Assembly: GCA_029940035.1 (NCBI GenBank)
Contig: JAOZRT010000011.1
Location: 1 to 37,266 of the forward strand
Source: Desulfobacterales bacterium
GTDB taxonomy: Bacteria; Desulfobacterota; Desulfobacteria; Desulfobacterales; B30-G6
DNA length: 37,266 bases
Direction of reading: 5' to 3'
In this document: positions 7,127 through 16,586 of the stretch, in pieces
How the letters are laid out: the number at the start of each line of letters is the position of its first letter
Position numbering within the stretch: the first letter of the stretch is position 1
Position numbers and translations under genes: made by a program
The notes under the pieces: generated by a model
What the model saw: the letters and a program-made list of their open reading frames with translations, nothing else
Databases searched by the model: none
What the model was told of the DNA's origin: nothing

Positions 7127-7163
7127 TATACCAGTTGCCATAATTATGTTCCGATTCGACTTC
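7127..7163. repeat. Dispersed intergenic element, copy B
   Basis: It begins TATACCAGTTGCCATAATTA and continues GTTCCGATTCGACTTC. By eye it matches copy C at 20773-20810 at 31 of 38 aligned positions. It lies 12 bases upstream of the dehydrogenase start codon. Confidence 0.6.
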
Positions 7164-7204
7164 AACAGGTAGACGGGATCGATATTTTTTTCAAAAAAGA
7201 TAAC

Positions 7205-7230
7205 TTTGTGTCCTTTGTGCCTTTGTGATT
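7205..7230. repeat. CTTTGTG short tandem repeat
   Basis: Three consecutive near-copies of CTTTGTGnC (CTTTGTGTC, CTTTGTGC, CTTTGTGA) lie just beyond the 3' end of the radical SAM gene. Similar CTTTGTG strings recur in intergenic DNA of many bacteria; the role is unknown. Confidence 0.5.
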
Positions 7231-7244
7231 ACAGATATGCTGCG

Positions 7245-8255
7245 TCAGTTGGCTTCCAGTCCTTCTGCGATGAGGCCCAGGACACGGTTTTTTTCTTCGG
7301 GGAATTTATAGCCTTCATAACTCTGGCTGAAGAGCAGTCTGCCCTGTTGGTCTTGCCAGTAGTTACCCGCGTGATCGAAACAGACCCTCGATGAAAAATC
7401 CAGACTCTCCATCATGGTTTTCAGTTCCAACAACTGCTCCTGCGGCGACTGCCGGGTGAATTCACCCCGGTCGTAGCGGTCGCTTAGGGGCGTGTTGGGT
7501 GCCGGAAAAAATGGACGGGAGCGGATGTAGTGCGGGTTGATTTCGTTCAGGACCGCGGCGGTGTGCCGGGCATGGTTGCCGGCCATTTCCCTGCCGCCCA
7601 GTCCCGGCATCCAGTATTCGGACAACTGGAAACCGGCCTGCATGGCCTTTTGGCCGCCCTTGATGTGGCCCTGGCCGGTGACGCCTTTGTTGATCAGTTT
7701 CAACAGGTCCTCGTCGCCGGTCTCGAGCCCCACGTGCAGCCGGTCCAGGCCGGCCTTGTTGATGGCCTGCAGTTCCTCCGGCTTTTTCTGGGCCAGGGTT
7801 TTGGACCGAGCGTAGGAGGTTACCCTTTTAAGGGAGGGAAAGGTTTGGCGCAAATGTTCCAGAATGTCCACCAGTTGATCGGTTTTCATGATCAGGCTGT
7901 TGGCATCCTGCAGAAAGGCGGTTTTCCCGCCCGACGCCAGCCAGTTGAAGACCATGTTGAACCCGGGGTGGCTGTACAGTTGCGGATTGCGTTCCAGCAG
8001 TTGCAGGGCCGCATCCCGGGTGACCCCGGTCGAGGCCGATGACGGGTCCGACAGTTCCCGGCAGATGTGCGCAATGGTGTCGATGTCCTGTTTCACTTCC
8101 GTTGGCGATCGCAGCGTAAATTTTTCCGTTTTGTACATGGCGCAGAACTCGCAGCGGTTCCAGGGGCAGTTGCGGGTGACGCGGATGAGCAGGGAATGGC
8201 TGCCCCCTTCACTCGGGGGCCGGTACACGCCCACTTCAAAATTACTATTCATCAT
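7245..8255 (-). CDS. Radical SAM protein, CX4CX2C type
   Basis: A 336-residue protein with an N-terminal cluster motif NCPWNRCEFCAMYK. The cysteines are spaced CX4CX2C, a variant of the usual CX3CX2C seen in a subgroup of uncharacterised radical SAM proteins. It should bind a 4Fe-4S cluster and cleave S-adenosylmethionine. Further conserved-looking strings are GLDRLHVGLETGDEDLLKLINKG (abridged in function to the beta5 region) and EYWMPGLGG. The start at 8255 is preferred over an upstream in-frame ATG at 8306 because GGAAG lies 7 bases before it and the family begins near this point. No substrate can be assigned. Confidence 0.85.
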   Translation of the reverse strand: MMNSNFEVGVYRPPSEGGSHSLLIRVTRNCPWNRCEFCAMYKTEKFTLRSPTEVKQDIDTIAHICRELSDPSSASTGVTRDAALQLLERNPQLYSHPGFNMVFNWLASGGKTAFLQDANSLIMKTDQLVDILEHLRQTFPSLKRVTSYARSKTLAQKKPEELQAINKAGLDRLHVGLETGDEDLLKLINKGVTGQGHIKGGQKAMQAGFQLSEYWMPGLGGREMAGNHARHTAAVLNEINPHYIRSRPFFPAPNTPLSDRYDRGEFTRQSPQEQLLELKTMMESLDFSSRVCFDHAGNYWQDQQGRLLFSQSYEGYKFPEEKNRVLGLIAEGLEAN

Positions 8256-8346
8256 CGTTTCTCTTCCTTTGGTTAGCAAGTAAATATATCGATTTTCACG
8301 CACCATAACAAAACCTGGTCGGTTTGACTACCCGTTGTGGTTATTT

Positions 8347-8366
8347 GGGCATGTAATTACATACCC
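8347..8366. promoter_or_regulatory. 20-bp palindrome, operator-like
   Basis: GGGCATGTAATTACATACCC is self-complementary at 18 of 20 positions. It is 92 bases upstream of the radical SAM start. Size and symmetry fit the binding site of a dimeric transcription factor; none is encoded beside it. Confidence 0.45.
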
Positions 8367-8540
8367 AGGCGAAAAATAGTTCCTATGCCCATGTGGCTCG
8401 ATACGGGCAAGAGCACTATATGTGGTTGAAATTGAAAAAAAATTAAAAAATATGATGGGTGGGCATATTTTGTGCAAAAGAGGGGGGTACGCCGGGTGGG
8501 CAGCATGGCGACCGGTATTTGCCAAGAACGGGAGAAATGA

Positions 8541-8828
8541 TTGTCAACCACTATAAAATATAGACAGACGAATGATCCACCGGGATTAGAAGGGTGCCGG
8601 GACCTGGTGCTTTATCAGGCCATCATGCAGCGCATCCGCCCCTCTGTCCACCCGGTCATGAATCAGCGAAAACCAGCGTATTCAGGTGCCGGAACTTTAA
8701 GACGGCAGGATCTGCATCCCGACATTCAGCACCTTTTTAACAAGCTGCATCGCCAAGTCTTTATTCACAATGACTGGTGGTCGGCCGTGTATGCTGAAAA
8801 AGGCATGATCATCGATACGTTAGCCTGA
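8541..8828 (+). CDS. Doubtful small hypothetical protein (TTG start)
   Basis: A 95-codon frame with a possible GGGAG site 6 bases before a TTG. Codons in the middle (GAC CTG GTG ... ATC ATG CAG CGC ATC) look coding-like, but the product, rich in Gln, Arg and His, resembles no family I recognise and the start is non-canonical. It could be a small gene, a remnant or chance. It is not clearly tied to either neighbour. Confidence 0.25.
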   Translation: MSTTIKYRQTNDPPGLEGCRDLVLYQAIMQRIRPSVHPVMNQRKPAYSGAGTLRRQDLHPDIQHLFNKLHRQVFIHNDWWSAVYAEKGMIIDTLA

Positions 8829-8981
8829 TACGCTTCCTTCTTCCGCCATCCTTGCATTGATGTACCATCCCCATTATATCCTTTGTCAGACATAGGTTTT
8901 GATTTACCATCTGGAAGGGATCCGTCCTTCATCCAAATCGGAACGCTATATTGGCGAACGCTCCAGCAAGACAATTTCTGC

Positions 8982-9008
8982 TTAAGTTTCCCATTGAAAA
9001 GCCGATAG
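8982..9008 (+). promoter_or_regulatory. Sigma-28 (FliA) promoter for the HD-GYP/motor operon
   Basis: TTAAGTTT (8982-8989), an 11-base spacer and GCCGATAG (9001-9008) match the FliA consensus TAAAGTTT-N11-GCCGATAA at 14 of 16 positions with exact spacing. The start codon at 9093 is 84 bases downstream. Confidence 0.85.
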
Positions 9009-9092
9009 GACATATAGTGTACAGCCTTGTGAAGGAGTCTTTTCAGGGGGATGGTTTTTGTACGGCCACATCCTTCCGAGCAGGATGATGTT

Positions 9093-10253
9093 ATGAATGT
9101 TTTGATTGTCGATAATGAACCGGATGCCATTAGCGCCTACGAGGAGACGCTGAGCAGCAACAAGTACGATCTTAAACTGGTCTACAATGGTGCTGATGCG
9201 CTGGAACTGATTCAGGCCGAACCCATCGATATTGTCGTAACGGCTTGGAGAATGCAGGAGATGGATGGTATTGAACTTTGCCGTCGTATTTATCAAGGTG
9301 GCTTCAAGAGCAATATATACACCATCCTGATCAGTGACCAGGAAGCCAATGGCGAGCTGATCCGGAGCCTGGGGTCGATAGTCAACGACTATATTCGCAC
9401 ACCCGTCAATCCGATCGATCTCACTGTCCGTCTTGCTATCGGCGCCAGGGTTGTCCGATTGGAGCATCGGATCGAGCGCGACCGGGAAACATTGAAAAAG
9501 GATTACTATCCAACTGTTCGCACGCTGTCCCACCTGGTTAATGTATACGATGATAATCTGGGAGACCATTCCAGGCGCGTGGCCGAAGCGTCTGTCAAGC
9601 TGTCCCGGATGCACCCCGGGGTTCCGGCGGTCGACTATCCAACCATTCAAGCGGCCGGACTGCTCCATGACATCGGCATGGTGTGTGTGCCGGCCAGCAT
9701 CTTGACCAAAAGCCGGACAGAGATGACAGCCGGTGAACGCACTCTTTTTATATCCCACCCGATTCAGGGTGAGAGCATATTAAATGAAAATGAAAAGCTT
9801 CGCCCGGTAGCCGCTCTGGTAAGAATGCACCATGAACAGTACAACGGCAAAGGCTTTCCCGACGCGCTGACAGGAGACCAGGTCCCTTTGTCGGTAAAAA
9901 TCATAACGGCTGTTTCGACATACGACAACCTTGTTCATCGGGGCAAATGCCCCCTGGAAGATGCCCCCACAGAGCTCCAGCGGTTCATCGGCTATCAGAT
10001 CGATCCGGCGCTTTACGACTATCTGATCCGACTCAACACGGATAACATTGCAATCGAGGCCCGAAAAAAATATCAAGAGGTGCGTCTCGAAGGCCTGGTT
10101 GAAGGAATGGTGCTTGCGAGCAACGTGCGTATGAAGGGCGGTGCCATGGCCATGCCTGTTCAAACGTGTATGACCGCGGCCATGATTGATAAGCTTAATC
10201 AATACAACCAAAAGGGATACGTCCCCAACAAATTTTACGTGTATAAACGGTAG
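9093..10253 (+). CDS. HD-GYP-type protein with degenerate receiver domain
   Basis: A 386-residue protein: a CheY-like receiver (about 1-120), a short linker helix (about 120-145) and an HD-GYP domain (about 146-330) with a C-terminal extension. In the receiver, the usual phosphoacceptor Asp is Ala51 (DIVVTAWRMQEMDG) and the conserved Lys position is Thr103 (DYIRTP), so classical phosphorylation is unlikely. The HD-GYP half keeps H159, LLHDIG (His192-Asp193), SHP (His222), RMHHEQ and NGKGFP (GFP instead of GYP). HD-GYP enzymes hydrolyse cyclic di-GMP. ATG 9093 follows AGGA by 7 bases. It is the first gene after a sigma-28 promoter and lies 13 bases before motA, suggesting c-di-GMP-linked control of the motor. 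Confidence 0.85.
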   Translation: MNVLIVDNEPDAISAYEETLSSNKYDLKLVYNGADALELIQAEPIDIVVTAWRMQEMDGIELCRRIYQGGFKSNIYTILISDQEANGELIRSLGSIVNDYIRTPVNPIDLTVRLAIGARVVRLEHRIERDRETLKKDYYPTVRTLSHLVNVYDDNLGDHSRRVAEASVKLSRMHPGVPAVDYPTIQAAGLLHDIGMVCVPASILTKSRTEMTAGERTLFISHPIQGESILNENEKLRPVAALVRMHHEQYNGKGFPDALTGDQVPLSVKIITAVSTYDNLVHRGKCPLEDAPTELQRFIGYQIDPALYDYLIRLNTDNIAIEARKKYQEVRLEGLVEGMVLASNVRMKGGAMAMPVQTCMTAAMIDKLNQYNQKGYVPNKFYVYKR

Positions 10254-10266
10254 GTAGAAAGACCCC

Positions 10267-11055
10267 ATGGATATTGCAACTATTATCGGATTATTTGGCG
10301 GAGCCGCGCTTGTTTTATCAGCCATTGTCATGGGCGGGAGTGCGGTCATATTCATCAACATTCCCGGTGTGTTGATTGTTGTGGGCGGAACACTGGCCGC
10401 CAGTTTCATAAAGTTTTCCCTCCAGGATGTCATCAATTCAATTTCCGTAGGCATGAAGGCCTTTATCTACAAGATAGAGCGCCCGGAAACCATCATTCAG
10501 CAGATGGTTGAATACACCCGGATTGCCAAAAAAGAGGGATTGATTGCCCTTGAAAAAGTAGAGGCCACGGACAAGTTTTCCGCTAAGGCCTTACAGTACC
10601 TTTCCGACGGCTTTGACGAGGGGTTGATCGAGGATATGCTTTACAAGGATATCAACCTGACGATTCAGCGTCACACCACCGGGCAGAATGTTTTTAAGGG
10701 GATGGGGGCGGCCGCGCCGGCTTTCGGGATGATTGGAACCCTGATAGGCCTGGTGCAGATGCTGGCCAACATGTCAGAGCCGGGAGCTATCGGCCCCGCC
10801 ATGGCGGTGGCCCTGCTGACCACCCTATACGGTGCCGTGATTGCAAACCTGGTCTGCCTGCCGCTGGCCGACAAACTGTTTTTGCGGAGCCAGCAGGAAC
10901 GCATCAATAAAAGCATTGTCCTGGAGTCGGCAGTGGGCATCAGCCGGGGCGTGGCTCCCATGGTTCTGGAGGAATCACTCAAGATCTATTTGTCCCCCAA
11001 AGAACGGGAAAAGAACAGCACCATGGAATTGGCTCAGGAGGCATCTGGTGGCTAA
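10267..11055 (+). CDS. motA: Flagellar motor stator protein MotA/PomA
   Basis: A 262-residue four-helix membrane protein: TM1 about 4-24, TM2 about 30-50, a cytoplasmic loop with RIAKKEGLIALE (Arg85, Lys88, Lys89, Glu90, Glu96) that holds the charged residues contacting FliG, then TM3 (GMIGTLIGLVQML) and TM4 (AVALLTTLYGAVIANLV). This length and sequence style resemble PomA of sodium-driven motors more than E. coli MotA (295 residues). It overlaps motB by 8 bases and follows the HD-GYP gene by 13 bases. Confidence 0.93.
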   Translation: MDIATIIGLFGGAALVLSAIVMGGSAVIFINIPGVLIVVGGTLAASFIKFSLQDVINSISVGMKAFIYKIERPETIIQQMVEYTRIAKKEGLIALEKVEATDKFSAKALQYLSDGFDEGLIEDMLYKDINLTIQRHTTGQNVFKGMGAAAPAFGMIGTLIGLVQMLANMSEPGAIGPAMAVALLTTLYGAVIANLVCLPLADKLFLRSQQERINKSIVLESAVGISRGVAPMVLEESLKIYLSPKEREKNSTMELAQEASGG

Positions 11056-11791
11056 GCCGGGCCAGGAACCAGTTGCAGAAGTCGTTGAGGAAGGGGCGCC
11101 CATGTGGATCGTCACTTTTGGCGACCTGATGAGCCTGCTGCTCTGCTTCTTCGTTCTCCTGCTCTCCTTTTCTGAAATGGATCGCCAGAAATACAAGGAG
11201 CTGTCCGGGTCGTTACAGAACGCCTTCGGGGTTCAGCGGGAAAAACAAGTATTTGACAATCCCCAGGGACAGAAAATCGTCGCCAAGGACTTTGATCAGG
11301 AAGCGATAACCTTATCCACGGAAACCGATATTCTCGAGCAGGTCCAGGAAGCGATCCGGGGTAGCTTCGGTCCCTATGCCGATTTGATCGAATTCGATTC
11401 CGATGACGTCCACAAGGTGCGCATCCGGCTGATGGGTGAAAGCACCTTTGATTCAGGCAAGGCAGACATCCGTGCAACCATGAAACCCCTGCTTGGCAAG
11501 ATCGCCGATGTGTTCAATACAAACCAGGAAACCATTATTATCGCCGGGCACACCGACGATATTCCTCTTAAAAAGGGAAGCCAGTTTAAAACCAACCTCC
11601 AGCTTTCCATGGCCCGTGCCGCGTCGGTGGCCGACTTCTTTCTGGCCCAGGGGTTGATTGAGCCCTCACGGATCTCCACCATGGGGTTCGGCCAGTACCG
11701 CCCCATTGACACCAACGATACCCCCGGGGGGCGCAGAAAAAACCGGCGTGTCGAGATTATCCTGGGCGCCATGCCAGCCCCGAACCGATAG
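11048..11791 (+). CDS. motB: Flagellar motor stator protein MotB/PomB
   Basis: A 247-residue protein with one N-terminal TM (about 20-43) carrying the ion-binding Asp26 in WIVTFGDLMSLLLCFFVLL, close to the PomB consensus with Cys in the helix. The periplasmic OmpA-like peptidoglycan-binding domain follows (IIAGHTDDIPL, LSMARAASVADFF, GRRKNRRVEI). The start is GTG at 11048, with CAGGAGG 6 bases upstream and overlapping the end of motA; the reading frame extends further 5' but that part is a shadow of motA. It anchors the stator to the cell wall. Confidence 0.93.
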   Translation: MAKPGQEPVAEVVEEGAPMWIVTFGDLMSLLLCFFVLLLSFSEMDRQKYKELSGSLQNAFGVQREKQVFDNPQGQKIVAKDFDQEAITLSTETDILEQVQEAIRGSFGPYADLIEFDSDDVHKVRIRLMGESTFDSGKADIRATMKPLLGKIADVFNTNQETIIIAGHTDDIPLKKGSQFKTNLQLSMARAASVADFFLAQGLIEPSRISTMGFGQYRPIDTNDTPGGRRKNRRVEIILGAMPAPNR

Positions 11792-11864: not shown

Positions 11865-12710
11865 ATGCAGGATAAAAGCTCGCTTTTAAAAAAGCTCAAA
11901 AAGCCCTTGGAATCCGGAAAAATACAGCTGCCCCCCTTTAGCGCAACTGCCATGAAAATCCAACAGGAAGCCACTAAAAAAAACCCCGATACCGACTTGA
12001 TTGAAAAACTCATCATGAGCGATCAGGCGCTCACGACTAAAATTCTTAGAATGGCCAATTCATCCTATTATCAAGGCCTATCCGCAATTAAGACCGTGCG
12101 TAACGCCATCGTGCGCTTAGGCACTCAGGAGGTCTCTAAAATTACCATGATGGTCACGCAGAAAGGACGTTACAAAGCAAAGGATCAGGCTATCAATCAG
12201 CAGATGCGTGAACTCTGGCAACATTCTGTTGGCTGTGCCATTGCTTCTAACTGGATCTGTAGGAAAATTGGTTTCGATCGACCGCCTCAAGAAGTTTTTT
12301 TTGCTGGCTTGCTTCACGATGTGGGCAAACTGTTTATGCTGACGATGCTGGACAGAATTAAATTAACATACGAACAACCCACTCAGTTTTCGGAGGCTTT
12401 TATACTTGAACTTGTCAATGGTTCACTGCATACAGTATATGGTTATAAACTACTGAAAAAATGGAACCTGCCTTTAAAATATTGTGAAATTACGCAAAAT
12501 CATCATTCAGAAGTGCTCGACAAGGATGATATTTTTCTTATGGCGGTTCAATTGGGCAATAAAGCCTGCAACAACCTAAACATTGGATTACGCGAGAAGC
12601 CACCAATCCCACTGACTGAGACGGAACAATTCCATCTGCTGGGGCTTTCTCAAATCGATATGGCTGAACTGGAAATAAAGCTCGCAGACTCAAAAATGCT
12701 TACCAAATAA
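11865..12710 (+). CDS. HDOD domain signalling protein
   Basis: A 281-residue single-domain HDOD protein. IQLPPFSATAMKIQQEA, ILRMANSSYY and AIVRLGTQEV are typical of the N-terminal HDOD helices, and an HD pair is present in GLLHDVGK (His151-Asp152), followed by YGYKLLKKWNLP and a later NHH. Many HDOD proteins have lost the HD pair; this one keeps it. HDOD proteins often act as non-enzymatic signalling adaptors for motility. Codon use is visibly more AT-rich than in motAB or the flagellar genes. It lies 73 bases after motB with GGGAG before the ATG, so it may be in the same transcript. Confidence 0.87.
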   Translation: MQDKSSLLKKLKKPLESGKIQLPPFSATAMKIQQEATKKNPDTDLIEKLIMSDQALTTKILRMANSSYYQGLSAIKTVRNAIVRLGTQEVSKITMMVTQKGRYKAKDQAINQQMRELWQHSVGCAIASNWICRKIGFDRPPQEVFFAGLLHDVGKLFMLTMLDRIKLTYEQPTQFSEAFILELVNGSLHTVYGYKLLKKWNLPLKYCEITQNHHSEVLDKDDIFLMAVQLGNKACNNLNIGLREKPPIPLTETEQFHLLGLSQIDMAELEIKLADSKMLTK

Positions 12711-16559: not shown

Positions 16560-16586
16560 TTATCGGCGGATCAGGGAAAAACTTTA
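16560..16586 (-). promoter_or_regulatory. Perfect sigma-28 (FliA) promoter for flgM-flgN-flgK-flgL
   Basis: Read on the minus strand: TAAAGTTT (16586-16579), 11 bases, GCCGATAA (16567-16560). All 16 consensus positions match the enterobacterial FliA promoter with exact spacing. The flgM start is 63 bases downstream. Confidence 0.92.

Follow-up and report, generated by a model that had tools for sequence, protein, structure and literature searches.

In this work we have analysed a stretch of 37,266 nucleotides from a Desulfobacterales bacterium (the window), in which the stator genes motA and motB are preceded by a gene coding for a receiver (REC) domain joined to a degenerate HD-GYP domain. 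The reading which we favour, and which we consider rather probable, is that this gene is the first of a sigma-28 stator operon and that its product is a non-catalytic, metal-holding HD-GYP regulator which acts by protein contact and, in the window lineage, independently of phosphorylation. The features on which the analysis is based are listed here; genes are named by homology, and many of the genomes used for comparison are metagenome assemblies.

8982..9008, plus strand: sigma-28 (FliA-type) promoter, TTAAGTTT-N11-GCCGATAG, 84 nt before the start codon
9093..10253, plus strand: gene for the REC plus degenerate HD-GYP protein (P0001), 386 aa, from the open reading frame, Pfam and alignment
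9093..9437, plus strand: pseudo-receiver domain, residues 1-115, with A51 for the acceptor Asp, T103 for Lys and N8 in the acidic pair
9516..10019, plus strand: HD-GYP domain, residues ~142-309, from alignment and fold match to 4r8z/4mcw
10068..10250, plus strand: C-terminal beta/alpha module, residues 326-386, most of which falls within the NosR NCBIfam model
10267..11055, plus strand: motA, downstream in the same operon after a 13-base gap
11048..11791, plus strand: motB, putative start at a GTG overlapping the end of motA

An in-frame ATG at 9051 is a possible alternative start of the HD-GYP gene; 9093 is the position at which all orthologs align. Pfam recognises Response_reg at residues 3-113 (E 6e-17) and HD_5 at 144-306 (E 9e-24), and the protein is laid out as a receiver (3-113), a long helix, the HD-GYP domain (~142-309) and a C-terminal module of 60 residues. 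In the AlphaFold model (mean pLDDT 89.4) the N-terminal part matches many receiver domains by fold, and the best solved relatives found by Foldseek are PA4781 (4r8z; TM 0.74, E 6e-10), PmGH (4mcw), PorX and DvhD (9rbz). The HD-GYP fold is thus present, as judged from both HD_5 and the matches to 4r8z and 4mcw.

Loss of the phosphorylation site from the receiver

A first-pass annotation of the window had described the receiver as lacking both the phosphoacceptor Asp and the conserved Lys, and the alignment of the window protein with 34 orthologs (A1) bears this out. The acceptor column holds Asp and the conserved Lys column holds Lys in 28/28 typical orthologs, whereas the window protein has A51 and T103, and so neither of the two residues by which a phosphorylatable response regulator is recognised. 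Its acidic pair is D7/N8, the second acidic residue being replaced by Asn, while Ser81 is retained. Could another residue take over as acceptor? No alternative Asp in the acidic pocket was seen in the ortholog alignment, and the neighbouring D46 and D57 were rejected as substitutes, since they are the ordinary beta3 and 'MDG' aspartates which are present in most typical orthologs too. A sequencing error at A51 was likewise rejected, because the nearest relative (G001, 74% identical and from another genus of the same family) also has Ala51, together with Met103. Judged by these residues, the usual route of phosphorylation is closed to the window receiver, which is phosphorylation-independent.

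The idea that relatives carry the same pseudo-receiver beside motAB held in part. It was found in G001 and in five genomes of genus g98, which belong to another family (f30); in these, the Asp is replaced by Lys, Ala or Thr and the Lys by Ala, Leu, His or Trp. The pseudo-receiver is not the rule among the orthologs, as 28/35 have an intact receiver. This suggests that the receiver of the motA-adjacent HD-GYP family was probably phosphorylatable ancestrally, and by their residues most relatives of the window protein look phospho-controlled.

Receiver loss arose independently twice. The decisive tree was built from the MotA, MotB and HD-domain sequences without REC; the pseudo-receivers of the window and G001 fall in one group and those of g98 in another, the starred branches force two changes, and a single clade of the seven pseudo-receiver genomes is rejected (p-AU 3.2e-5). 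With the full-protein tree alone, a single origin of the pseudo-receivers could not be rejected (p-AU 0.51). The g98 receivers erode faster, with 20-31% identity to typical receivers, and four g98 genomes (L095, L097, L104 and L116) have stator genes without the HD-GYP gene directly upstream. Dead receivers and gene-less stators thus occur within one genus, and loss of the receiver followed by loss of the gene is a possible sequence there.

Is the window gene then simply decaying, with receiver and enzyme both dead and the gene kept on its way out only for the expression of the motAB operon? The g98 erosion and the g98 stators without the gene fit such a course, but we regard it as very improbable for the window lineage, in which the reading frame is open, the invariant HD-GYP positions described below are intact, and the window and G001 proteins, from two genera, are still 68% identical in REC and 78% in HD despite saturated synonymous change (dS saturation also limits dN/dS on REC). 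Most of the pairs whose receivers are intact show a similar proportion. Because REC is still conserved, the receiver domain of the window lineage appears to have been retained for a purpose other than phosphorylation.

Catalytic and ligand-binding residues of the HD-GYP domain

PmGH served as the reference for residues, with metal ligands E185, H189, H221, D222, H250, H276, H277 and D305 and catalytic residues D183 and K225 (PMC4159591). In order along the chain (D183 first, D305 last), the window counterparts are D153, N155, H159, H192, D193, M196, H222, H246, H247 and S275. That the metal residues are mostly retained, as the first-pass annotation had it, is correct for six of the eight (H159, H192, D193, H222, H246, H247), the exceptions being E185, now N155, and D305, now S275, which leave the eight-ligand set incomplete. 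The catalytic set, which had also been described as mostly retained, is not: besides the changes at E185 and D305, the D183/K225 pair is broken, with D153 present and K225 replaced by M196. The reading of GFP in place of GYP was right (F255, PmGH Y285), and Phe stands here in 33/35 orthologs. K225 is Met, Leu or Phe in 35/35 and D305 is replaced by Ser or similar in 33/35, whereas 8/8 sampled HD-GYP paralogs of the same order keep both residues. The base- and substrate-binding L10/11 loop (PmGH R314/K317, DvhD R650/Y652) is 4 residues shorter family-wide than in the eight paralogs. On this pattern, the loss of catalytic residues is a property of the whole motA-adjacent family and not of the window protein alone. 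H189, H250, H276, H277, E278, N, G, P and D308 (PmGH numbering) are invariant in the orthologs, as is the HHE--NG-G(F/Y)P block among all 35, so that constraint on the pocket persists. The domain looks like a conserved, metal-holding, non-catalytic module, and we infer from its residues a loss of c-di-GMP phosphodiesterase activity.

The K225A exchange left PmGH without activity, D305A and E185A lowered the activity with some remaining, and Y285A, R314A and K317A had little effect, Y285A and R314A being still active (PMC4159591). These data bear on the proposal, made in the first-pass annotation, of a constitutive c-di-GMP phosphodiesterase, in which the receiver would be frozen in its active state and c-di-GMP would be degraded near the stator, keeping the motor running. 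Such an enzyme could draw on the six remaining ligands, on D183 and D308 and on the fold of the active PA4781 and PmGH, and PmGH stayed active after exchange of the GYP Tyr or of R314. K225, the residue whose exchange was fatal in PmGH, is nevertheless gone from the entire family, usually along with D305 and the R314-bearing loop; E185 is lost too, and the enzymatic residue pattern is retained in the paralogs of the same order but not in the orthologs. We therefore consider a constitutive phosphodiesterase distinctly unlikely. Weak or altered hydrolysis is possible, given the six ligands, D183 and the partial activity of the D305A and E185A forms of PmGH.

It may also be asked whether the dead pocket binds c-di-GMP and signals to the stator, as a functional counterpart of YcgR-type brakes. 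DvhD, a degenerate HD-GYP protein of the sulfate reducer Desulfovibrio vulgaris and one of the fold matches of the window protein, binds c-di-GMP without cleaving it (PMC13090378), and with matches to 6 GGDEF, 5 HD-GYP and 16 PilZ domains c-di-GMP signalling does exist in the window genome. The nucleotide clamp of DvhD consists of the GYP Tyr and of R650 and Y652 in L10/11, whereas the window protein has F255 and the shortened loop; with this loop and with Phe in most of the family, the side chains known to bind the base and the phosphates are absent. We think a receptor of this kind unlikely. The two proteins resemble each other as HD-GYP modules of sulfate reducers that are catalytically dead, the window protein probably so, and DvhD uses its module for signalling, but DvhD is a membrane dCache-PAS-HD-GYP protein in which the HD and HH metal ligands are gone and the nucleotide clamp is kept; the window protein has kept metal ligands and lost the clamp.

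The stator operon and its distribution

The position of the gene 13 bases upstream of motA was confirmed (motA ATG at 10267). The promoter at 8982-9008 has 14/16 matches to TAAAGTTT-N11-GCCGATAA, with 2 mismatches; by chance, 0.22 sites with at most three mismatches are expected per whole window. Besides this site the window has a single match, a perfect TAAAGTTT-N11-GCCGATAA at 16560-16586 on the minus strand, upstream of FlgN-like, FlgK and FlgL genes (named by inspection). A comparable site (at least 12/16) lies upstream of 26/35 orthologs, against 2.2% of shuffled sequences. The window gene thus carries the FliA-type promoter of a flagellar class-III (sigma-28) gene.

Orthologs are found in 35/389 genomes of the order and are well separated by score (at least 498 bits, against 293 for other HD-GYP proteins). 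A class-level search returned genomes of the same order only, and a phylum-level search gave one further ortholog outside it (G464). The adjacency to motAB in relatives, which the first-pass annotation had put forward as a check, is complete: 35/35 orthologs and G464 immediately precede motA-motB and are read from the same strand, and the gap to motA is at most 30 bp in 30/37 stator-adjacent loci. Taken together, the promoter and the conserved adjacency indicate that the HD-GYP gene is most likely a member of the flagellar late-gene regulon and the first gene of the stator operon (HD-GYP gene-motA-motB). With adjacency and flagellar promoter conserved and the receiver lost twice, the setting of the gene is firmer than was stated at first.

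All 35 carriers have a close MotA, and no carrier without one was found among the genomes of the order. A close MotA without the HD-GYP gene occurs in 22 further genomes, most of which have a divergent gene at that position; the HD-GYP gene is therefore not required by the stator. Directly after motB the window has an HDOD-domain gene (11865-12710, plus strand); the G001 locus showed no HDOD match next to motB.

Possible mode of action and related systems

In typical members, a histidine kinase would phosphorylate the receiver and thereby switch the HD-GYP module. This module is probably metal-bound and most likely acts without catalysis, through contact with another protein; its target may be the MotA/MotB stator or else an enzyme or receptor of c-di-GMP that serves the motor. 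The receiver of the window lineage, without Asp and Lys, would serve for interaction and dimerisation, being either fixed or gated in some other manner, and the regulator would be set by expression, a ligand or a partner instead of phosphorylation. We infer both the protein-contact output and the stator as target, and co-transcription is no proof of contact. A sensor role or a direct action on the stator, as suggested in the first-pass annotation, is possible in view of gene order and promoter.

Most of the stator regulators known are PilZ proteins that bind c-di-GMP. The window protein may share with the PilZ brakes of the YcgR type a role as a motor-dedicated regulator, but its fold is unrelated and it has no PilZ domain. 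The finding of a conserved REC/HD-GYP gene that always stands ahead of motAB and is controlled by the flagellar sigma factor suggests another regulatory route in sulfate-reducing bacteria. Searches of the openly accessible literature on HD-GYP with motA, motAB or stator gave no title or abstract describing the motA-adjacent family. More tentatively than the reading above, and with doubt prevailing, we suggest a previously undescribed, stator-dedicated family in Desulfobacterales-type bacteria. Its receiver would pass the signal to an HD-GYP module that holds metal, does not catalyse and gates MotA/MotB; twice the receiver would have been uncoupled from phosphorylation, and the metal site may then have been left to sense redox state or a ligand. 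If this were true, phosphorelay control would be exerted at the stator and not at the switch or through c-di-GMP levels.

The nearest named family by profile is NosR (NCBIfam NF053512; NosR of B. pseudomallei), whose model is matched by all 35 orthologs, the window protein scoring 206.5 bits and so below the curated cut-off of 400. NosR shares the REC domain, the degenerate HD-GYP domain and the C-terminal stretch, but it keeps the acceptor Asp, has the motif HG-GTP and sits in a nosRPK operon, not beside motAB; a protein-contact output has been proposed for it (PMC12570481). HnoD of Shewanella oneidensis, likened here by description and not by sequence, is also a response regulator with a degenerate HD-GYP domain which acts via protein contact; it has no phosphodiesterase activity and inhibits the EAL enzyme HnoB (PMC6335343), though in an NO pathway. 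With phosphodiesterases of the PmGH, PA4781 and RpfG type the window protein has in common the fold, six metal ligands and the G-P of the motif, but it lacks K225, D305, the R314 loop and, like most of its family, the Tyr of GYP. It is more probable that the window-lineage protein is a regulator linked to the motor than that it is an enzyme, and the motA-adjacent family should not be annotated as c-di-GMP phosphodiesterases. The intact receivers, dead receivers and lost genes form a natural series in one stator operon, in which the contribution of phosphorylation can be tested.

In nine f30 genomes (L063, at 7138-11534, L068, L073, L074, L077, L080, L097, L104 and L116) a gene cluster diverges from the stator operon, including genomes that lost the motA-adjacent HD-GYP gene. 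It contains a REC-PAS-histidine-kinase protein (Pfam-checked in L063, 7138-8997, and L097, 2300-4039), which is a candidate for the cognate kinase of typical members, as well as two more REC/HD-GYP regulators in L063 and HDOD in some genomes. A second, distant REC/HD-GYP type lies directly upstream of a different motAB, with 44% MotA identity, in two families, namely in L085 (2228-3544, minus strand) and L086 (4928-6289, minus strand), and has HEIGK/HELGK for HDIGK and FHE for HHE. Another REC/HD-GYP paralog group, in L081, L082, L083 and L084 of family f50, has Tyr for the first metal His, HDIGL, and AVSDY for AD.YD, and by these residues is likely to be non-catalytic as well.
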